Positions 28,601 to 37,686 of a stretch of DNA of 64,000 bases are shown here, one piece after another (position 1 is the first letter of the stretch; every line of letters starts with the position of its first letter). Source of the DNA: Candidatus Roseilinea mizusawaensis (GTDB lineage: Bacteria > Chloroflexota > Anaerolineae > J036 > Brachytrichaceae); NCBI GenBank assembly GCA_016841965.1, contig JAEANN010000022.1, forward strand, positions 62,001-126,000, in the 5' to 3' direction. The notes beneath the pieces were generated by a model that was not told the DNA's origin, made no database searches, and saw only the letters and a program-made list of their open reading frames with translations. A program made the position numbers and the translations under genes.

Positions 28601-29349
28601 AGAAAGCTCATCAGGCCCGACGATTTGCCCCCCCCGCTCAACGGCTCGTTCTCGGCGCGCAGGCGCGAAAAGTTGGTGCCGGTGCCGCTGCCGTACTTAA
28701 AGATGCGCGCTTCGCGCACCCACAGGTCCATGATGCCGCCGTCATTCACCAGATCGTCTTCGATGGACTGGATGAAACACGCATGCGGCTGTGGGTGTGT
28801 GTAGGCATCTTCCGAGCGTTTGACTTCGCCGGTGTGCGCATCGACGTAATAGTGCCCCTGCGCCGGCCCGGTAATCCCATACGCCCAGTTCAGACCAGTG
28901 TTGAACCATTGTGGGCTGTTGGGCGCGGCCATCTGCATGGCAAGCATGTAGCACATCTCATCATAAAAAGTGTGCGCGTCTGCTTCTGTGTCGAAGTAAC
29001 CATATTTCCAACCCCAGTAGGTCCACGTGCCGGCCAGACGATGGAACACCTGCCGTGCGTCTTGTTCGCTGCCGCACGTCGCGCCTTCTGCCGGCACACA
29101 GGCCTGTAACCACTCTGGGACGCCGGCTTCGACCACGCGCCGTGTCTGGTTTGGCACGCCGGCCTTGCGGAAATACTTCTGCGCCAGAATGTCCACCGCC
29201 ACTTGTGACCAGTGCGCCGGCGCGTCAATGTCCTGCATCTCGAATACCGTCGAACCGTCGGGATTGCGAATCACCGAGCTGCGTTTCTCGAACGGAATCG
29301 AGGCATAGGGACTCTGATCGGGCTGAGTAAACAGTCTATTGATTTTCAT
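25681..29349 (-). CDS. nrdJ: Vitamin B12-dependent (class II) ribonucleotide reductase
   Basis: A 1222-residue adenosylcobalamin-dependent reductase that makes dNTPs with or without oxygen. Recognisable parts are [20 protein letters not shown] (substrate-site Cys and loop), [28 protein letters not shown], and the C-terminal TSCPD-like module near 1040-1110. A zinc-ribbon tail with CPECG and [13 protein letters not shown] supplies the redox cysteines regenerated by thioredoxin. ATG 29349 is preferred (AGGAG upstream). It is the second gene of an nrdR-nrdJ operon, starting 34 bp after nrdR. Confidence 0.96.
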
Positions 29350-29383
29350 GGTCTCCTCTATCAAACCTGCCGGCCCAGCGCAA

Positions 29384-29836
29384 CTACTTCTCGGCCAACA
29401 GCTTCTCGATCTCTTTCTTCACGCTCTCCAGGTCTTTCAAGTTGAGATAAACGATCGCATAGCGGATGTAGGCTACTTCATCCAACTTGCGCAACCCATT
29501 CAGCACCATGTCCCCGATATCACGCGCAGCAACCTCAGATTTGTTGAGCGCCACCACCTGGGCCTCGACCTGATCGACCAGCCTATCGATGGCTTCAGCC
29601 GACACCGGTCGCTTGGCGCATGAAATCCGGATGCCTTCCAGAATCTTGTCGCGATTAAACGCTTCACGGCGTCCCCCGCGTTTCACCACCAAGGGCGTGG
29701 ATTCCACCACGCGTTCGACCGTGCTGAACCGCCTGTTGCAGTTTTTACACTCGCGCCGCCGACGGATTCCGCCGCTTGGCTCTCGGATCGTGTCGATCAC
29801 ATGGGTGCTGCTCGATCCGCATGTCGGACACTTCAT
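29384..29836 (-). CDS. nrdR: Transcriptional repressor NrdR
   Basis: A 150-residue regulator. The N-terminal zinc ribbon has MKCPTCG and CKNCNRRF (residues 1-36). An ATP-cone follows (about 49-139), with [16 protein letters not shown]. It binds ATP/dATP and represses ribonucleotide reductase genes when dATP is abundant. It lies directly upstream of nrdJ, behind two palindromic NrdR boxes, which implies it regulates its own operon. Confidence 0.97.
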
Positions 29837-29867
29837 TCAGCACAGCATCCTTCCCCCAGACAGAAAT

Positions 29868-29910
29868 CGCCATATATGGCGTAGAGCTTTTCGCATAGCC
29901 CCATATATGG
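29868..29910 (-). promoter_or_regulatory. Pair of NrdR boxes
   Basis: Two palindromes sharing CCATATATGG: the 14-bp perfect CGCCATATATGGCG at 29868-29881 and CCATATATGG at 29901-29910. Their centres are 31 bp apart, matching the three-helical-turn spacing known for NrdR box pairs. They lie between the predicted promoter and nrdR. Confidence 0.8.
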
Positions 29911-29926
29911 CGCCTGTGGGAGCCTG

Positions 29927-29956
29927 ATTGTATGCTGTTCAGTCGCGCTTTGTCAA
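29927..29956 (-). promoter_or_regulatory. Predicted promoter of nrdR-nrdJ
   Basis: Minus strand: TTGACA (29951-29956), 18-bp spacer, TACAAT (29927-29932). The first NrdR box starts about 16 bp downstream of the -10, so bound NrdR would block initiation. Confidence 0.65.
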
Positions 29957-30116
29957 CGACTGAACCTTAAAAATCTGCCAACTACCATTGCTATCGCTTG
30001 AGGGAAGCGATTACGCGGACAACAGGCGCAATGCGCAAAACGCCTGCCTGGCAGAGAAGAAACTGCCGTGTCTCTGTCCAGTTAGAGCCGTATGCGACGT
30101 GTCAGAATAGCAACGA

Positions 30117-30150
30117 GGACAGGGCAACAACACGCCCTGCCGCCCTGTCC
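30117..30150 (-). terminator. Hairpin downstream of ftsZ
   Basis: Perfect 9-bp inverted repeat GGACAGGGC / GCCCTGTCC with a 16-nt loop, 20 bp after the ftsZ stop. No T-run. It probably marks the end of the dcw transcripts. The remaining bases between 29957 and 30116 show nothing recognisable. Confidence 0.55.
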
Positions 30151-30170
30151 AATTGCCGCTTCATGCCGCT

Positions 30171-31325
30171 TCAGCGCCGGCGCAGGAACGACGGCAGTTC
30201 CAGATTATCGGGGTCGATCGGCATCTGGCGCGTCGCCCGATCCACCGGCTCGCCGGGTACCGTTGACGTCGGCAACGAGGCGGTCATCGTGCGGATTGGG
30301 TTGCGCGCGGTGGATGTCTGCGCGTTGGTTGGTCGCGGCAGCCGGCGCGAGGATGCGCCGGTCTGGTCAAAACCTGTCGCGATGACTGTGATGCGAATCT
30401 GTTCTTTCATCGACTCGTCGATCACCGCGCCGAAGATGACATTGCAATCCGGGTGAGCGGCCGCTTTGATCAGCGAAGCTGCCTCGTTGACCTCGAACAG
30501 GCTCATATCTGGTCCGCCGGTGATATTGAACAGAATGCCGCGCGCGCCGTCTATGGTGACATCCAGCAGGCTGGAGGTAATGGCCTGTTCGGCTGCCGTA
30601 CGCGCGCGCCCTTCGCCGGATGAGGTGCCAACAGCCATCAGAGCCGCTCCGCCTTCGGACATGATCGCCCGCACGTCGGCGAAGTCGAGGTTGATCAGGC
30701 CGGGCACGGTAATCACCTCGCTGATGCCCTGAATGCCCTGGCGCAGCACGTCGTCGGCCGTGCGGAACGACTGTTGCAAGCTGGCCCGCTTATCCACAAT
30801 GTCGAGCAACCGGTCGTTCGGGATAACGATCAGCGTGTCAACGTGCTCTTTGAGTTTTTCGATGCCGGCTTCTGCGGCGCGCATACGCGGCGTGCCCTCA
30901 AATGAGAACGGGCGGGTCACTACGCCGATGGTCAACGCCCCCAGCTCCTTCGAGATGCGGGCGATTACGGGCGCGGCACCCGTGCCGGTGCCGCCACCCA
31001 TGCCGCAGGTGATGAACACCATGTCGGCGCCCCTCAAAATGCTGTACAACTCGTCCGACGATTCCTCGGCTGCCTTTTCGCCGGCTTCCGGGTTTCCGCC
31101 CGCACCCAGGCCTCGTGTGACTTTGTCGCCGATGCGCACCCGCACCGGCGCATGACTCAACATCAAGGCCTGTTGATCTGTGTTCACAGCAATGAATTCG
31201 ACGCCGGCCAAGCCTTCCGCAATCATTCGGTTGACTGCATTCTGGCCGCCACCGCCAACACCCACGACCTTAATTTGAGCCGGGGACTCAGCATGAACTG
31301 ATTGTGTTGCCAAATATGTATCCAT
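30171..31325 (-). CDS. ftsZ: Cell division GTPase FtsZ
   Basis: A 384-residue tubulin homologue that polymerises into the Z ring. It has [18 protein letters not shown] at the N-terminus and the tubulin signature [14 protein letters not shown] Pro/Thr/Arg linker and a conserved C-terminal peptide ending [11 protein letters not shown] bind FtsA and other partners. ATG 31325 (MDTYLATQ) is chosen because GGAAGGGGG lies upstream; the longer open frame above it is not conserved. It is separated from ftsA by a glycosidase-like gene and has its own promoter. Confidence 0.97.
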
Positions 31326-31443
31326 TTTGATTTGGCCCCCTTCCTGTTTGCCAAACCTTTTGCTTGCAGTGGCCTGTGCCTCATCCCAAAGAGCAAGCCA
31401 GCCGGATCGCCCAGGCAGGCAACCCCACCCAGGATGTGCACGG

Positions 31444-31485
31444 ATTCTAGCCTGATAATCCACAAAGTCAAGCCACTTATCCACA
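31444..31485 (-). promoter_or_regulatory. ftsZ promoter with DnaA-box-like sites
   Basis: Minus-strand promoter: TTGACT (31466-31471), 16-bp spacer, TAGAAT (31444-31449). A perfect DnaA-box consensus TTATCCACA lies at 31477-31485 (read on the plus strand) just upstream of the -35. A one-mismatch copy TAATCCACA lies at 31455-31463, inside the spacer. Their starts are 22 bp apart, two helical turns. Confidence 0.5.
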
Positions 31486-31527
31486 ACTTCTACACAGGCA
31501 TCTGAATTTTAAGTTTACGATTAGAAT

Positions 31528-33426
31528 TCACATAGATTCCACCTCGATCATCTCGCACGGCACATTGGCCTCCTGCGCCTGCATGACCAGCGCATGTGAC
31601 CCGTGTGGCAAATCACACGACCAAATCAGGCCCGAACGCCGGCGCACTGGAGACGCGAAATCCAGTGTGGCAGCCCATTGGCCGTTGATGCGCACCTCAC
31701 ACCGGCCAAAGCCCGGCGCTTTGGGTGCATACAGCGAAACCCGGCTGCCGATGAAATTCCACTTGGCGCGCGCACCCGGCCGCGCACTCAAATGCCCAAT
31801 CCCAAATCGAAAGTGTTCATCCTCGACCAGCGTCCATGCCTCCGGCTCCTCTGCCGCGCCGGCCAGCGCCTCGGTAGACAACCAGCATTGCCGGTCCGCC
31901 TGCGCCTCCGCAGACAGCTCAAGCTGCTCGACGTTCAGCGTTGTGCCGGCCTCGGCCAGCAACTCGATCCGGCCTGCTTGAGCGGGCGCGACACCTTGCC
32001 AGATCAGCCTGCCCTCCAGCGCGATGTGCACCAGGTCGCCGGTTCGCTCGATCTCAATCTGCTCTGTTCGCCCCGGCGCCCAGTCCGTCATCGTGTTCGC
32101 AAGCAAGTGCGCGCCGCCATACTCGTCCAGCGCAACCAATGAAGCCGACGCTGCCGGCCCGCGCCGCCACTCTAGTCGCCGGCTGTGGGTCAAGGGATGC
32201 AGCGACGCATCGGCAAAGGGATGACTTGGCCCCAGCGGCTCGTGGCAGCCCCAACAGAACGCCCATCCGCCATTGGCTCGCGCCACAATACGCGCTTGAA
32301 AGTCGCCCACGGTGCGTTTCAGGATCGCCAGCGCCGGCCCGTTGGGTGCGGCCAGCACAAATCCGTCTCGATACGCCTCTGACCAGGGTCGCCGAGCCAT
32401 ATGTATCGTGCCGACATCGTCGCGTGTTTTGCACGGATAGAACGCCCTCAGCCAGCCATCCGAGCCGATCTGTCCCGAAAATGTCTGGCCCCACAGGCCT
32501 TGTCCCTCGGCCGGCTCGCTGTGCCAAACCGAGCCATACTGGTCGATCTCCCACACATCGGGCAGGTGCGCTTGCTCGACCGGCGCCCAATACATCACCT
32601 GAAACGACCGGTTCAATGCCACCGAGGTCGCCGGCGCGTACACATATCCGTCATGAACGAATTGCGGATAAAACTCGGCCAGCGGCGGATGGAAACGATC
32701 CGACTGCGGCATCAACAGCAAACGTGGCGCACTGTACGGCCCTTCAGGGCGAGCGGCTGTCATGCACGCCAGCGCCCACGTCCCGCCGGCGTTGCGCGGT
32801 GTGCTCATCATGTGCAGGATCATCCAGTCGCACTCGCGGCGGACCAGCGTGGACGCATAGGCCCGCACGTAACGCCCCAGCAAAGCCGGCTGATGCGCGT
32901 CGTCGTGCAACGGGGTCGGAGCGCGGTGAAATGGCCCTTCTGGCGACTCAGCCCAGGCATACGCCAGACCGCCGCGCCGGTTGTCTGGATCGCACCAACC
33001 ATACACCATGTGATATCGCCCGGCCTCATACACCAGCGACACATCAACTGTGCCGCCGCAACGCCGCCCGTCACTCTCGAACGAGTTTGCATCGGGAGCA
33101 AGCACGATCCCCGCTGCCTGCCACCGTCCGGTTTCCTCACGCAGCGCCAGTACGCCGCCGGGCGGCCAGTAACCCCTCGGATACAGACTGATGTAGGCAT
33201 ACCAGCGTCCTGAGACCGGATCGTGAAACAGAAAGCCATTCACCGGCCACTCGTGCGGCGCAGCGCCGAAATAGATCGGGTTGTCCGGCTCGCGCTCGAA
33301 CGCATCCCACGAAGGATCGCCCAGCACAGGATGATGCAGCCACCAGTCCCGGTAGCGCGCCTGGGCTAGGTCAACCACCTTGCTGGAGCCAATCTCCACT
33401 TGCGATATTTCCATGCTGCCGCTCAT
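31528..33426 (-). CDS. Beta-propeller glycosidase-like protein inserted in dcw cluster
   Basis: A 632-residue protein. Residues ~40-400 show repeated propeller-type segments: NGFLFHDPVSGRWYAYISLY, VDVSLVYEAGRYHMVYGWCD, SPEGPFHRA, and EFYPQFVHDGYVYAPAT. These resemble the five-bladed GH32/43/68-type superfamily. A beta-sandwich tail (~440-632) contains VRINGQWAATLDF, like the GH32 C-terminal module. No signal peptide, so probably cytoplasmic. I cannot name a family or substrate. It lies 24 bp after the ftsA stop and 202 bp before ftsZ, an unusual place for a sugar enzyme. Confidence 0.7.
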   Translation of the reverse strand: MSGSMEISQVEIGSSKVVDLAQARYRDWWLHHPVLGDPSWDAFEREPDNPIYFGAAPHEWPVNGFLFHDPVSGRWYAYISLYPRGYWPPGGVLALREETGRWQAAGIVLAPDANSFESDGRRCGGTVDVSLVYEAGRYHMVYGWCDPDNRRGGLAYAWAESPEGPFHRAPTPLHDDAHQPALLGRYVRAYASTLVRRECDWMILHMMSTPRNAGGTWALACMTAARPEGPYSAPRLLLMPQSDRFHPPLAEFYPQFVHDGYVYAPATSVALNRSFQVMYWAPVEQAHLPDVWEIDQYGSVWHSEPAEGQGLWGQTFSGQIGSDGWLRAFYPCKTRDDVGTIHMARRPWSEAYRDGFVLAAPNGPALAILKRTVGDFQARIVARANGGWAFCWGCHEPLGPSHPFADASLHPLTHSRRLEWRRGPAASASLVALDEYGGAHLLANTMTDWAPGRTEQIEIERTGDLVHIALEGRLIWQGVAPAQAGRIELLAEAGTTLNVEQLELSAEAQADRQCWLSTEALAGAAEEPEAWTLVEDEHFRFGIGHLSARPGARAKWNFIGSRVSLYAPKAPGFGRCEVRINGQWAATLDFASPVRRRSGLIWSCDLPHGSHALVMQAQEANVPCEMIEVESM

Positions 33427-33450
33427 CGGTCAACCTTCAAGTCAATGTCC

Positions 33451-34686
33451 CTACTCGCCTTTCGGCAGCAGGTTGCCCCACCAGGCTTTCATGTTCAAAT
33501 TGAGGGTGGGTCGGCGGCGCTTGCTGGGCCGGGCCACAATGTCGTGCATTCCCCACCTCAGTAACCCGATAACGGTCGAGTAGGCGGGCGAGTGCAGCGT
33601 ATCCACCAGCCCTTGTAAACCGGTCGGTTGCGCGATGCGCACGGGCAGGTTTGTCACGTCGCGAGCCACGTCGCGCAGCCCCGGCAACAACGCCCCTCCA
33701 CCCGTGATCACCAAGCCGGCCGGCAACAAACCGTCATAGCCACTCCGCTTGACCTCCTGCACGATCATGCCGAACAACTCCTCGGCGCGCGCGTGCAGAA
33801 TTTCGGCCACCTCGTGCCGATGCACACTCACGCGCTCTTCATCGCCAAAGCCGGCCACAATAAGCGGGTTGTCCAGTGGCAAGCCGTTCGGGTTACAGTG
33901 GCCGTTGGCGAGTTTGATCTGCTCGGCCGTCTCCAGCGGCAGCCGCAGGCACAGCGCCAGATCGCTGGTGAAGTGTGCGCCGCCTACATCCAGCACACAG
34001 GTGTGCCACACCGCGCCGTCGATGAAAATGGCAATATCGGTCGTGCCGCTGCCAATATCCACTAGCACCACCCCCATCTCCCGCTCGGTGGGGGTAAGCA
34101 CTGCCTCTGCAGAGGCCAGCGCCGTCAGCACCAACTCACTCACGTCGATTTGGGCTGCGTTGGCGCATTTGATCAGATTCTGGATCGATGTTGTGGAACC
34201 GGTGACAATATGCGCCTGCACCTCCAGCCTGAAGCCCAGCATGCCAATCGGATTGCGCACGCCGTCCTGTTCGTCAACCTTAAAATGGCGTGGGATTACG
34301 TGGATGATTTCACGGTTATTTGGCGCGCTGATGGCCTGGGCCGACTCCAGGCTGTGATTGATGTCGTTCAGGTTGACCCCCTGCTCGCCTCGACTGATGG
34401 CAACAGCCCCATGGCTGTTCTGCGAGCTAATATGGCTACCGGAGATGCCGACGATGGCGCTGTTGATCTTAAGCGCCGATGATCGCTCGGCGCCGTCCAG
34501 CGACTCGCGGATTGCCGCTGTGGCCTCGGCCACATTGATGATCTGCCCGCGCTTCATGCCGCGCGCCGGCGCCATGCCCACGCCAATCACGCTGAACTCG
34601 CCCGGCGCAGCCGTCGCTTCGCCCACCAGGCTGATCACCTTTGAGCTGCCTACATCAACCGCAGTGATTATCCTGGGTTCTGCCAT
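33451..34686 (-). CDS. ftsA: Cell division protein FtsA
   Basis: A 411-residue actin-like ATPase that links FtsZ filaments to the membrane. It begins with the phosphate-1 motif AVDVGSSKVISLVGE and has the SHV/1C domain (about 85-165), VVLVDIGSGTTDIAIF as phosphate-2 and GLVITGGGALLPGLRD as the adenosine motif. The C-terminus NLNMKAWWGNLLPKGE is a plausible amphipathic membrane anchor. Start at ATG 34686, 39 bp after the ftsQ stop. Confidence 0.95.
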   Translation of the reverse strand: MAEPRIITAVDVGSSKVISLVGEATAAPGEFSVIGVGMAPARGMKRGQIINVAEATAAIRESLDGAERSSALKINSAIVGISGSHISSQNSHGAVAISRGEQGVNLNDINHSLESAQAISAPNNREIIHVIPRHFKVDEQDGVRNPIGMLGFRLEVQAHIVTGSTTSIQNLIKCANAAQIDVSELVLTALASAEAVLTPTEREMGVVLVDIGSGTTDIAIFIDGAVWHTCVLDVGGAHFTSDLALCLRLPLETAEQIKLANGHCNPNGLPLDNPLIVAGFGDEERVSVHRHEVAEILHARAEELFGMIVQEVKRSGYDGLLPAGLVITGGGALLPGLRDVARDVTNLPVRIAQPTGLQGLVDTLHSPAYSTVIGLLRWGMHDIVARPSKRRRPTLNLNMKAWWGNLLPKGE

Positions 34687-34694
34687 TGCTTCCT

Positions 34695-34736
34695 TGCCGT
34701 CTGCCGTCTGTCGTCTGTTGTCTGACTACTGACCGC
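34695..34736. repeat. Heptamer array between ftsQ and ftsA
   Basis: Six units: TGCCGTC, TGCCGTC, TGTCGTC, TGTTGTC, TGACTAC, TGACCGC. They fill the whole ftsQ-ftsA gap and encode the last residues and stop codon (TAG at 34726-34728) of ftsQ. Confidence 0.85.
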
Positions 34737-35571
34737 CGACATAGTACGGTGCTTCTGGATATCGAACGTCAATCACGCCGGGCAACAGGTTGTCGCCGGC
34801 CAATTGTGCACGCAAGAGCCGCGCCAGTGTCACCTTTTCGCTCATGTCACCTTCGTGCTCAGACCATCCCAGCCGCACGCGCCACCCATCCGCGTCGGTA
34901 TAGGCGATGCCATAGCGGGCGCTGTACACATACAGGCGAGCGTCTGCCTCGAGGGCGGCCAGCTCGCTCAAGGTTCGCAGCAAGGCCGGCTCGATTGTCT
35001 GACCAATCTGCGGGCTGGCTGCATCCTGCGTCTCGCTGCGCAGCCGCAGCGAGGCCGGCATATCTCCCAGCGCCTGTTGCACCTTGCCACTGCGATCGAT
35101 CCACACAAGCCCTTGCGGCGTCTCCCACAGCGCCAGCGCCTGCGACGCCTGCACCACGATGGTGCAGGCAACAGTCCATTCCCATGTGCACGTCACTTCG
35201 GCTGCATCGACCCCTGGCAAATCATCGATGCGCTTTGCTGCCGCGTTCAGATCGACAAAAGCGAAGTGCTCGCCGGCCAGACCGCTGGCCCCGATGATCT
35301 GGGCCGGCGCCACGCCCTGGTTGTGATAGACGCGAATAGAGTCGGTTGCAATCGTGAATGCATCGCCGGTGAACCAGCGCACACCAAGCGCCAACCCTGC
35401 AATCAGCGCCACTGCAACAGCAATCCGCAGCCGCATTGCCCGGCTGAGACGGGGTGTTGCAGGCGCCTGCTGCCGGCTGAGGCGCCCAGCCGACCGCGCC
35501 ACATCAAAGCGTGTGCGCGCATCTGTGCGCGCATGCTTGCGCCGGGGTCGGTAATAATGCATGTCGGACAT
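34726..35571 (-). CDS. ftsQ: Cell division protein FtsQ
   Basis: About 281 residues: a basic cytoplasmic N-terminus, one membrane helix (LRIAVAVALIAGLALGVRWF, around residue 55), a POTRA domain beginning IATDSIRVYHNQGVAPAQII, and a C-terminal FtsQ domain. It scaffolds the FtsB/FtsL complex at the septum. The start may be ATG 35571 or 35562. The 167-bp interval to ddl upstream is filled by a long heptamer array, and the stop codon lies in another. Confidence 0.85.
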   Translation of the reverse strand: MSDMHYYRPRRKHARTDARTRFDVARSAGRLSRQQAPATPRLSRAMRLRIAVAVALIAGLALGVRWFTGDAFTIATDSIRVYHNQGVAPAQIIGASGLAGEHFAFVDLNAAAKRIDDLPGVDAAEVTCTWEWTVACTIVVQASQALALWETPQGLVWIDRSGKVQQALGDMPASLRLRSETQDAASPQIGQTIEPALLRTLSELAALEADARLYVYSARYGIAYTDADGWRVRLGWSEHEGDMSEKVTLARLLRAQLAGDNLLPGVIDVRYPEAPYYVGGQ

Positions 35572-35581
35572 GGCAATAGTC

Positions 35582-35747
35582 GTCAATAGTCAGTCGCCAG
35601 AACACAAAGCACAGAGTGCATCACCTGACACTCATTACTCTCCACTCTCCACTCTGCACTCTCCACTCTGCACTCTGCACTCTGCACTCTCCACTCTGCA
35701 CTCTCCACTCTGCACTCTCCACTCTGCACTCTGCACTCTCAACTCTC
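35582..35747. repeat. Long heptamer tandem array between ddl and ftsQ
   Basis: About 24 units in continuous 7-bp phase. The left part is degenerate (GTCAATA, GTCAGTC, GCCAGAA, CACAAAG, CACAGAG). From 35643 there are fourteen near-identical CACTCTC or CACTCTG units. The left part matches the array inside the FGGY kinase. The right end encodes the final codons and stop of ddl on the minus strand. Confidence 0.95.
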
Positions 35748-36737
35748 CACCCTATCCCGTTCCAGCGCCAACTGAATCAGATAGTCCAGGAGCGCCGGAT
35801 ACGACATGCCGGTTGCCATCCACAACTTGGGGTACATACTGATCGATGTAAAGCCGGGGATGGTATTGACTTCATTGACAAACAGTTCTCCTGTCTGGCC
35901 ATTCATCAAAAAATCAACGCGCGTCATGCCCTGAATATCGACCGCGCGCGCGACTTCGACGGCCATATCGCGCACACGGCGCGCCAGCGCGTCCGACAGG
36001 GGCGCAGGGATGATCAGTTCTGATTGTTCTTCACCCGTGGCCAGATACTTGGCTGCATAGTCATAGAACTCACGGCGCGGCTTGATCTCGCCGACAACTG
36101 AAGCGCGCAAGTCGTCATTGCCCAGCACGCTCACTTCGAGTTCGCGGGCATGTGGCACGGCTGCTTCGATCAACACTTTGCGATCCCACTTGAGCGCCTC
36201 AAGCACCCCGGCTGCAATCTCTTCGACCGATTTGCACTTGCTGATGCCCACGCTGCTGCCCATGTTGGCCGGCTTGACAAACACCGGCAGGCCCAGCGCC
36301 ATCACGGCCTGCGTCACAATCGACTCGGCTCGCGCACGCCACTCATGCCCCAGCACAACCATTGCGCGGGCCACCGGCAGGCCATGTGCACGCATGACAT
36401 CTTTGAAAATCGCCTTGTCCATGCCGACCGCCGAGCCGACCACGCCGGCCCCGACAAACGGCACGCCGAGCAAGCGCAACAATCCCTGCACCGTGCCATC
36501 CTCGCCGTTTGGCCCATGCAGCAGTGGAAACACCACATCGAATTCGCGCAGTGATTCGAGCGGCACAGGCCAGCGTCCGTCCTTGCCGATCAACACCGGC
36601 GTCACGTCATAGCGATCTGTATCCAACTCTTCCATGACCGATGCCGCCGACATCAGGCTTACCTCGTGCTCGCCGCTCTGCCCGCCGTACAAGACGGCCA
36701 CTTTGATCTTCGAATGTGATGTTGCAGTCTGTCCCAT
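35739..36737 (-). CDS. ddl: D-alanine--D-alanine ligase
   Basis: A 332-residue ATP-grasp ligase that makes D-Ala-D-Ala for MurF. Conserved parts: VLYGGQSGEHEVSL at the N-terminus, FPLLHGPNGEDGTVQGLL, VKPANMGSSVGISKC for ATP binding, and FVNEVNTIPGFTSISMYPK with the Mg-binding Asn/Glu. Its last four codons and stop come from the adjacent heptamer array. It starts 13 bp after the murB stop. Gram-type Ddl size. Confidence 0.96.
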   Translation of the reverse strand: MGQTATSHSKIKVAVLYGGQSGEHEVSLMSAASVMEELDTDRYDVTPVLIGKDGRWPVPLESLREFDVVFPLLHGPNGEDGTVQGLLRLLGVPFVGAGVVGSAVGMDKAIFKDVMRAHGLPVARAMVVLGHEWRARAESIVTQAVMALGLPVFVKPANMGSSVGISKCKSVEEIAAGVLEALKWDRKVLIEAAVPHARELEVSVLGNDDLRASVVGEIKPRREFYDYAAKYLATGEEQSELIIPAPLSDALARRVRDMAVEVARAVDIQGMTRVDFLMNGQTGELFVNEVNTIPGFTSISMYPKLWMATGMSYPALLDYLIQLALERDRVES

Positions 36738-36742
36738 GAATT

Positions 36743-36770
36743 GTCAGCACTCAGCACCCAGCACCCAGCT
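36743..36770. repeat. Short heptamer array at murB 3' end
   Basis: Four units: GTCAGCA, CTCAGCA, CCCAGCA, CCCAGCT. They encode the terminal LGAGC residues and the stop of murB and fill the murB-ddl gap. Confidence 0.75.
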
Positions 36771-37686
36771 CTGCCCGCTCCCACTCACCGATCAGTTCGA
36801 TCTCCAGTTCCAGCCAGATATCAAAGCGCTCGAGCACAGCCCGGCGCGCGAGATCAATGAGCGCCTTGACATCGGCTGCCGTGGCCTGGCCGGTGGCATT
36901 CACAAAGAAGTTGGCATGCACCGGCGAGATCATTGCGCCGCCGCGCTGCGCGCCTTTGAGGCCACAAGCATCGATAAGCCGGCCGGCGTAGTCGCCAGGA
37001 GGATTCTTGAACATACTGCCAATCGTCGCGCCCGGTGGTTGAGAGGCCCGCCGTCGCGCCTGAAACTCGGCTGCCCGGCGCTCCAGATTCACGCGATGGT
37101 CGCGCTTGAGATCAAACAAGGCGCTGAGCACAACCGGCCGCTCCTCGGGCTGATATTGCTTTAACGCGCTCTGGCGATACGCAAAGGCAAGCTGGCGCGG
37201 CGTCCAGTATTCGGGTTGCCCACCCCGGCGCATGATGCGCGCCAAATGCAAATTGCTGCCAACTTCCGTGCCGTGCGCCCCGGCATTGCCGACGACCGCT
37301 CCGCCGACCGTTCCGGGCACGCCAACCGCCCACTCCATGCCGGCCAGACCCCGCTCGATGCAATCTCGCGCCAGGGTTGCCAGCACAGCACCCGAATCGG
37401 CTTCCACCCGCGCAGAAATATCTTTTACTGTGAACTTGACCTCGCGCGTGCGATTCAGAACAACCAATCCCCGCACGCCGGCGTCGCTCACCAGAATGTT
37501 GGCGCCGCCGCCAATCACGACACACCGTAATCCCAGCGCATCGGCGCGATCGACCAGCGCGACCAGCTCATCGGTGGTGCGCGCATCCACCAGCAAATCG
37601 GCCGGCCCGCCGATACGTGCGGTGGTGTAGCGAGCCATCGGCTCGTTGCGTTTTGCGCGTGTCTTCAACACCTCCAGAATATCCAT
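36751..37686 (-). CDS. murB: UDP-N-acetylmuramate dehydrogenase (MurB)
   Basis: A 311-residue FAD enzyme reducing UDP-GlcNAc-enolpyruvate to UDP-MurNAc. FAD-binding parts are ARIGGPADLLVDARTTDEL and VVIGGGANILVSDAGVRGL. GVPGTVGGAVVGNAGAHG and GSMFKNPPGDYAGRLID place it in the type II (Gram-positive-like) group. ATG 37686 (MDILEVLKTRAKRNEPMARY) is the natural start; the frame above it lacks conservation. The last residues arise from a heptamer array. Confidence 0.96.
   Translation of the reverse strand: MDILEVLKTRAKRNEPMARYTTARIGGPADLLVDARTTDELVALVDRADALGLRCVVIGGGANILVSDAGVRGLVVLNRTREVKFTVKDISARVEADSGAVLATLARDCIERGLAGMEWAVGVPGTVGGAVVGNAGAHGTEVGSNLHLARIMRRGGQPEYWTPRQLAFAYRQSALKQYQPEERPVVLSALFDLKRDHRVNLERRAAEFQARRRASQPPGATIGSMFKNPPGDYAGRLIDACGLKGAQRGGAMISPVHANFFVNATGQATAADVKALIDLARRAVLERFDIWLELEIELIGEWERAELGAGC

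Follow-up and report, generated by a model that had tools for sequence, protein, structure and literature searches.

A putative five-bladed propeller glycosidase gene inserted between ftsA and ftsZ in a genus of Chloroflexota

Why does a gene for a beta-propeller protein resembling sugar-cleaving enzymes stand between ftsA and ftsZ, and does its product belong to the division machinery? The question is raised by a stretch of 64,000 nt from Candidatus Roseilinea mizusawaensis (assembly GCA_016841965.1, contig JAEANN010000022.1, positions 62,001 to 126,000), hereafter the window; in our numbering it is C30:62001-126000 of genome G000 and it lies within a contig of 160,733 bases. An earlier note, made from the letters alone, had described here a 632-residue propeller protein with a layout like that of glycoside hydrolase family 32 (GH32; other GH families are named likewise), encoded on the strand of both division genes, and had read it either as cargo placed in an operon or as an enzyme acting on a division-linked glycan. 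We refer to the gene by the working name PROP. Our best explanation as a whole, which we consider probable, is that PROP is a relocated passenger enzyme carried in the ftsA transcript.

The insertion in the ftsA-ftsZ spacer

The arrangement described in the earlier note was confirmed. The PROP open reading frame (ORF) is intact, with 632 amino acids and no internal stop; both neighbours score above the cutoffs of their models (TIGR01174 and TIGR00065; Table 1), and 24 nt (33427-33450) separate the ftsA stop from the PROP ATG. For ftsZ the ORF list gives a GTG start at 31484; relatives and the sequence indicate the ATG at 31325, which makes the gap from PROP to ftsZ 202 nt. On the minus strand the genes run ftsW-murG-...-murC-murB-ddl-ftsQ-ftsA-PROP-ftsZ-nrdR-nrdJ, the names other than ftsA and ftsZ being assigned by reading, and the GC content of PROP (0.639; 0.726 at third codon positions) is similar to that of the neighbouring genes.

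The insertion is real and not an assembly error. Since the window lies inside a much longer contig, no contig edge is close to PROP. A strong argument against a chimera is that the order ftsA-PROP-ftsZ recurs in Thermoflexales bacterium SKYG113 (G002, a metagenome-assembled genome of Chloroflexota; locus L156, its 31,662-base contig), which with G001 makes up the other two species examined in the same genus (g1). The G002 orthologue occupies the same slot and is 65% identical. The ratio of nonsynonymous to synonymous substitution rates (dN/dS) between the two copies is 0.138 (dS 1.8, near saturation), by which measure PROP appears to be under purifying selection. Occurrence in one genus only would fit a chimera or a recent unrelated insertion without function, but with two genomes sharing the arrangement, distant contig edges, open frames and this dN/dS we consider such an origin exceedingly improbable.

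We searched a set of 60 relatives, own genome included, for PROP at an E-value of 1e-5. The gene is present in six of them, in one split over two contigs. FtsA was matched in 57 of the genomes and FtsZ in 58 at the cutoffs used; ftsZ lies on the same contig and strand as ftsA in 52 of the 57 and on a different contig in five. The spacing between the matched parts of the two genes is 58-557 nt in 50 of these 52 genomes, 2,098 nt in G002 and 2,125 nt in G000. PROP is found between ftsA and ftsZ in the latter two genomes only, i.e. in two of the three species examined in the genus. As a separate observation, ftsA and ftsZ are on separate contigs in all four genomes examined of genus g2 (G003, G010, G015 and G019) and in G016; the pair may be split in genus g2.

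Comparison of synteny also revealed a trace of the gene in the third species. In G001, a genome 93% complete, ftsA and ftsZ are adjacent and PROP has no match. The G001 spacer holds CGAGGTGGAATCTATGTGA, which agrees at every base with the 19 nt that end the window PROP ORF (residues EVESM and the stop), and past this sequence it aligns with the region downstream of PROP in G000 and G002. The EV of EVESM is the homologous end of the protein, and LEV or a similar ending is present in most of the relatives aligned. A nucleotide tree of ftsA and ftsZ from seven genomes sets (G000,G001) apart from G002 with a support of 99.3/98 (Shimodaira-Hasegawa-like approximate likelihood ratio test, SH-aLRT/bootstrap). 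Codon positions 1 and 2 of the same genes give this grouping at 92.5/86, and the FtsA protein tree, from which 11 of the 25 supplied rows were dropped as their start motif was not located, gives it more weakly (bootstrap/SH-aLRT 82/77). The 19-nt scar and the tree together suggest that PROP was gained before these species split and was then deleted in G001; two independent gains at one site would be the costlier alternative.

The wider history was traced in a protein tree of 55 rows, which left out nine loci duplicating genomes already present, four loci without a called gene, the short L211 and both halves of the G068 gene, and in which L204 was trimmed to its C-terminal part. In this tree the pair of G000 and G002 is sister to records HR16 and SKYG83 (bootstrap/SH-aLRT 99/90), and genus g8 comes next (96/77). 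Such a position makes transfer between lineages likely. Simple vertical descent of PROP from an ancestor of g1 and g8 was considered as well and is weakened by HR16 and SKYG83 being the sisters. PROP follows an alpha/beta hydrolase gene in HR16, and in SKYG83 a neighbour 88% identical to that hydrolase; the PROP lineage appears to have moved between genomes and neighbourhoods.

How such an insert could be expressed was addressed by a promoter scan of positions 31100-35800, with shuffled sequences as control. No promoter-like site was found in it between ftsA and PROP; the sole site is a sigma-70-like candidate for the ftsZ promoter, located between PROP and ftsZ. In G002 the PROP ATG is 4 nt past the ftsA stop. 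Given a gap of 4-24 nt and no promoter-like site ahead of it, PROP can ride the ftsA transcript, most likely as its 3′ extension, while the site downstream of PROP means that ftsZ need not depend on that transcript. The TTGACT-16-TAGAAT site is kept upstream of ftsZ in both G001 and G002, and 18 of the 24 family genomes inspected have a TTGAC(A/T)-N15-19-TANNNT match ahead of ftsZ (a count without shuffle control; the 24 are genomes with an available ftsZ locus, G018 being among those left out). PROP would then lie after ftsA and ahead of the promoter of ftsZ, and the insertion would cost division little because ftsZ would be driven by its own promoter downstream. These features speak for the cargo reading of the earlier note.

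Just upstream of the −35 element of this candidate promoter is a DnaA box, TTATCCACA. The other perfect copy in the window is within the ftsZ coding region (30790-30798); 2 of 100 shuffles of the window likewise had two copies. A perfect box (TGTGGATAA) occurs in 15 of the 24 ftsZ upstream regions, beside or inside the TTGAC..TA...T promoter match, and seven upstream regions have two boxes 21-22 nt apart, one of them between −35 and −10. The boxes suggest DnaA control of ftsZ, a mode of regulation known from Caulobacter.

Table 1. Coordinates in the window of PROP, its neighbours, candidate signals, predicted domains and residues
Feature	Position	Strand	Basis
PROP, 632 codons and stop	31528..33426	−	ATG start, ORF call; no signal peptide by reading
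ftsA, upstream neighbour	33451..34686	−	TIGR01174, 399 bits versus cutoff 175.85
ftsZ, downstream neighbour	30171..31325	−	TIGR00065, 443.4 bits versus cutoff 295.2; ATG at 31325 from relatives
Candidate ftsZ promoter, TTGACT-16-TAGAAT	31444..31471	−	Sigma-70-like; sole promoter-like site in 31100-35800
DnaA box TTATCCACA	31477..31485	+	2 perfect copies in 64 kb; shuffle mean 0.18
Predicted five-bladed beta-propeller, residues 37-357	32356..33318	−	DSSP; VIA-align to GH117 3r4y_B, Z 24.9, root mean square deviation 3.1, 275 residues aligned
Predicted beta-rich domain, residues 365-508	31903..32334	−	Strand pattern; taken as GH32/GH43-type beta-sandwich
Predicted C-terminal beta-rich domain, residues 511-632	31531..31896	−	Strands; profile matches at about 510-620 in many class genomes
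Asp128, blade II first strand	33043..33045	−	Invariant 49/49; candidate catalytic acid
Glu251, blade IV first strand	32674..32676	−	Invariant 49/49; candidate catalytic base
Asn63, blade I first strand	33238..33240	−	Asn 48/49, one His; at GH43 catalytic Asp position by inferred register
Ala191, blade III first strand	32854..32856	−	Ala 48/49, one Gly; at GH43 second Asp position by inferred register

Elsewhere in this region, a scan of positions 29000-37000 against Rfam gave no match, and a tandem array was observed between ftsQ and ddl (35637-35750; 14-base unit ACTCTGCACTCTCC, 8.1 copies, 93% matches).

Predicted fold and proposed active site

What kind of protein does the spacer encode? 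PROP passes no Pfam or NCBIfam cutoff; for GH43 it scores 16 bits, where the cutoff is 32.2. In the AlphaFold model (m67a56d58e7cf) built from 12 alignment rows, the predicted local distance difference test (pLDDT) value is 77.1 and the predicted template modelling score (pTM) is 0.78; with six rows these values are 67.2 and 0.65. The model has a propeller, with blades assigned by DSSP at about residues 60-109, 125-173, 188-238, 250-298 and 317-360, and two further beta-rich domains. The predicted five-bladed propeller fold is shared with GH43 and GH117. The profile of the C-terminal domain also matches other proteins of the class, of varied length.

In a VIA-align comparison with 987 chains, covering residues 37-357, GH117 leads (Z 24.9), followed by GH43 (23.2), GH130 (22.6) and GH159 (21.0). 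The top Foldseek hits were GH32 levanases, although their TM-scores for the entire chain were low, at about 0.3-0.4, and its alignments to GH32 and GH43 enzymes span about 500-600 columns. A profile of 49 relatives matched GH117 3p2n (E 1.3e-7) and GH43 4qqs (2.4e-6) over the stretch of blades I and II, and PDB sequence searches gave matches to this stretch only or to shifted repeats of it. In Pfam searches at E 0.001 with the 49 members of the family alignment, which come from nine bacterial phyla going by record title, GH43 was matched by 33 (best 8.3e-11), DUF4185 by four and CE2_N by one; GH32 and GH130 were matched by none, and none matched any NCBIfam model.

The ‘GH32-like layout’ of the earlier note therefore stands as far as the predicted fold goes, as propeller plus beta-sandwich is common to both, and falls at the level of family: PROP itself has no Pfam match to GH32 at E 1, and its sequence and aligned fold are nearer to GH117 and GH43. 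GH32 enzymes are marked by the motifs WMNDPNG, RDP and EC, which were not seen in the PROP sequence. Closest to PROP by aligned fold and profile is GH117, the 3,6-anhydro-alpha-L-galactosidases (3r4y, 5ta7, 4ak5 and 3p2n), whose whole propeller aligns with residues 37-354 of the model. Nevertheless, identity in the GH117 rows is 8-13%, PROP has two further domains and, by inferred register, it has no Asp on the first strand of blade I; GH117 uses Asp90, His302 and Asp320, with Glu303 near, according to the accessible part of PMC11574756. PROP has the five-bladed propeller and, by the inferred register, the blade IV acid in common with GH43 (clan GH-F), but the Pfam score stays under the curated cutoff and in that register two Asp positions correspond to Asn63 and Ala191. 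GH159 is, like PROP, a five-bladed propeller outside GH43; its set of D19, D142 and E190 matches that of GH43 (PMC9278983, excerpt). By eye, PROP resembles GH130 in the N-terminal RxPxNPI, in having an Asn in blade I and in an Asp on the opening strand of blade II, whereas the motifs of blades III and IV differ and PROP is longer.

Alongside the two acids of Table 1, the alignment has Asn272, Arg273, His302, Gln314 and Tyr190 invariant in all 49 members, as well as Asp69, located in the hairpin between strands one and two of blade I and probably a turn residue. GH43 proteins of related genomes read RDPFV in blade I, LDGTL in blade III and DGPFL in blade IV, each at the presumed first strand (canonical GH43 carries Glu at this blade IV position), and PROP reads VNGFL, YASTL and EFYPQF at the presumed equivalent places. 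By these motif positions, with the register inferred, two of the GH43/GH32 acids have given way to other residues while that of blade IV remains, and the three-acid site asked about in the earlier note does not look intact. A profile-profile route to the catalytic register was tried and rejected: the GH32 single sequence, GH43, GH130 and the global mode all slipped blades.

The blade I motif of GH130 proteins from related genomes is VFNCAVV and their blade II motif is VEDPRVT, and by eye Asn63 and Asp128 stand at like places. In GH130 BT3780, Asp142 is the sole candidate acid, acting perhaps via the sugar O3, with Glu227 or Glu268 as a possible base (PMC4599007, in the section available). Based on this likeness we propose that PROP is a putative inverting glycosidase whose catalytic pair is Asp128 and Glu251. 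A terminal sugar would be cleaved off in the propeller funnel by single displacement; Asp128 would serve as the (possibly relayed) acid and Glu251 as the base, and Asn63 would bind the −1 sugar as in GH130.

The replacement of two of the three GH43/GH32 acids (Asn63 and Ala191 in the inferred register) could also be expected of a pseudoenzyme, a glycan-binding propeller without catalysis that acts as a lectin or regulator. We hold this to be unlikely. Asp128, Glu251, Asn272, Arg273, His302 and Gln314 are invariant throughout the alignment, and active enzymes with reduced acid sets have been described, in the parts of the two papers at hand: GH130 enzymes are active although they have an Asn and just one Asp as candidate acid (PMC4599007), and so is a GH43-like endo-xylanase in which Asn190 replaces the third GH43 residue (PMC11022575).

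The family and its neighbourhoods elsewhere

Does the family keep company with division genes elsewhere? A scan of genome_contigs with the single PROP protein gave no match; a later scan with an alignment of nine relatives yielded 59 named loci, about nine of them contigs of genomes already counted under G handles, and including two genes split across two contigs each (L163/L213 and L210/L214). By record title the loci span ten bacterial phyla, with some unclassified bacteria: Chloroflexota, Hydrogenedentota, Verrucomicrobiota, Armatimonadota, Acidobacteriota, Planctomycetota, Omnitrophota, Bacteroidota, Hinthialibacterota and Bacillota (Cohnella). We also observed a relative of 48% identity whose contig is binned as Sigynarchaeota, an archaeon (L161), by contamination or misbinning or by transfer, and a Bacteroidota relative called as an ORF of 1,263 amino acids, twice the usual length (L204:8117-11908), a possible fusion or wrong start. 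In the class, 92 of 396 genomes were matched at E 0.001, with the full protein in 11 (in two split over contigs); the other 81 match over part of it only, in most cases the C-terminal domain. A phylum-wide draw of 400 gave three matches, namely the own genome, G062 and a third that covers the C-terminal domain. A plasmid search with PROP gave no match. Literature searches, in the portions of the sources available, did not bring up any account of the PROP family or of a gene lying between ftsA and ftsZ; one of them yielded mainly unrelated papers, and the negative is weak evidence of absence.

The context of PROP was inspected at 55 of the 59 loci, the other four being without a called gene. 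Division genes, labelled by BLAST at 1e-10 in flanks of up to 10 kb and often shorter, are near PROP at one of the 55 loci, which is G002 itself. With two of 60 relatives and one of 55 loci, PROP shows no conserved association with division genes that would place it in the division and cell wall (dcw) cluster or the divisome. A rough hydropathy test found a hydrophobic N-terminus in 29 of the 49 members and in none of the nine Chloroflexota rows; relatives with such an N-terminus may be exported.

These results bear on the second reading of the earlier note, here worked out as an enzyme that would trim a glycan in the cytoplasm or a precursor of the cell wall, its level being tied to that of FtsA by co-transcription. 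Its place right after ftsA in both of the diverged species, the purifying selection and the nine Chloroflexota rows without a hydrophobic N-terminus are what it would lead one to expect. Nevertheless, the sister species G001 deleted PROP and has ftsA and ftsZ intact and adjacent, 54 of the 60 relatives have no PROP match, the flanks elsewhere are free of division genes as just described and, by the rough hydropathy test, over half of the aligned members may be exported. A division-linked role is thus most improbable, and we return to PROP as a passenger.

The neighbours elsewhere hint at oligosaccharide substrates containing rhamnose, fucose or arabinose. In f36, GH29 adjoins PROP in G119 and G062, with GH32 and an enolase superfamily gene close by in the latter; in G258 the genes near PROP include those for GH127, a sulfatase and an enolase superfamily member. 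Rhamnosidase genes are near PROP in L203 and L202, and in L202 PROP directly follows one. In the Bacteroidota locus L203 a TonB-dependent receptor (SusC-type) and SusD are directly upstream; SusD was matched in two of 50 neighbours, at L203 and, by reading, L207. PhyH is directly downstream of PROP in L203 and in Cohnella L197. The 50 neighbours are same-strand proteins hand-picked from 162 neighbour ORFs at 47 loci and scanned against Pfam; 25 of the 69 matched families were listed. The AcrB family was matched by three of them, as frequent as any, at L186, L189 and L200 going by length and reading; at these three Hydrogenedentota loci PROP was seen directly after a gene of 1,026 amino acids.

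In the genomes of genus g8 whose contigs reach far enough (G009, G022 and, split, G014) the genes near PROP are prfB (by reading), a metallophosphoesterase, GH4, an aldose epimerase, a class V aminotransferase, a xylose-isomerase-like barrel and DUF2071, then PROP, a second class V aminotransferase and Gfo/Idh/MocA; DUF2071 and Gfo/Idh/MocA were not seen near PROP in G014. Gfo/Idh/MocA, GH4, isomerase-like partners and 3-keto-disaccharide hydrolases mark 3-keto-sugar or elimination routes. PROP might then act with Gfo/Idh/MocA and isomerase-like partners in a redox-type cleavage rather than by hydrolysis, a possibility to which the Gfo/Idh/MocA genes of the g8 and f36 clusters, GH4 and the barrel in g8, and a 3-keto-disaccharide hydrolase neighbour in L182 lend colour. 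We judge it improbable: the members scanned have no Pfam NAD-binding domain, BLAST labels give Gfo and GH4 at only four of 55 loci each, and a search of the window genome with two genes of the g8 sugar cluster found paralogues only (GH4 45%, aminotransferase 51%).

Meaning of the placement and of the acid set

By the explanation that we prefer, PROP would be a glycan-degrading enzyme, soluble and cytoplasmic, from a family of five-bladed propellers that has no name as yet, riding behind ftsA as a passenger. Several observations weigh against parts of this explanation. Confidence in the model is moderate, with pLDDT below 50 at residues 1-12, 14-17, 27-41, 242-248, 270-272, 300-315 and 400-413, and the stretch 242-248 shortly precedes Glu251. 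The blade register comes from strand order and hairpin motifs, while profile alignments matched shifted blades. The ftsZ promoter-like site is at chance level (one found; shuffle mean 1.0) and is supported by conservation only. No Pfam family occurs in more than three of the 50 neighbours and a minority of the 25 listed families are glycan-related; PROP behaves as a loner, and its neighbourhood says little on its substrate. As G001 is 93% complete, a PROP copy may exist elsewhere in that genome. That two diverged species have kept PROP could reflect a use linked to growth or division. We infer that PROP is co-transcribed with ftsA, that it is catalytic, what its residues do and that it takes no part in division.

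A wider proposal can be put forward tentatively, with somewhat less confidence than we would need to expect it to hold: the relatives would form a new carbohydrate-active family of five-bladed propellers in about ten phyla, with exported and cytoplasmic forms and with a dyad of blades II and IV (Asp128/Glu251) replacing the GH43/GH32 trio, and in one lineage the ftsA-ftsZ spacer would have been re-used as a free slot for expression, ahead of an ftsZ promoter with a DnaA box.

On present evidence, we regard the locus as a lineage-restricted insertion of a putative glycan enzyme, a passenger, into the ftsA-ftsZ spacer. The enzyme gene would have been dropped into the spacer without separating ftsZ from its promoter and later lost in a close relative, which calls for caution in deducing function from an address in the division operon. 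The placement is of modest interest; of greater value are the family, which is without its own curated model in the libraries searched, and its acid set, changed yet rigidly conserved. An acid set that is both altered and invariant makes the chemistry testable by two point mutants.

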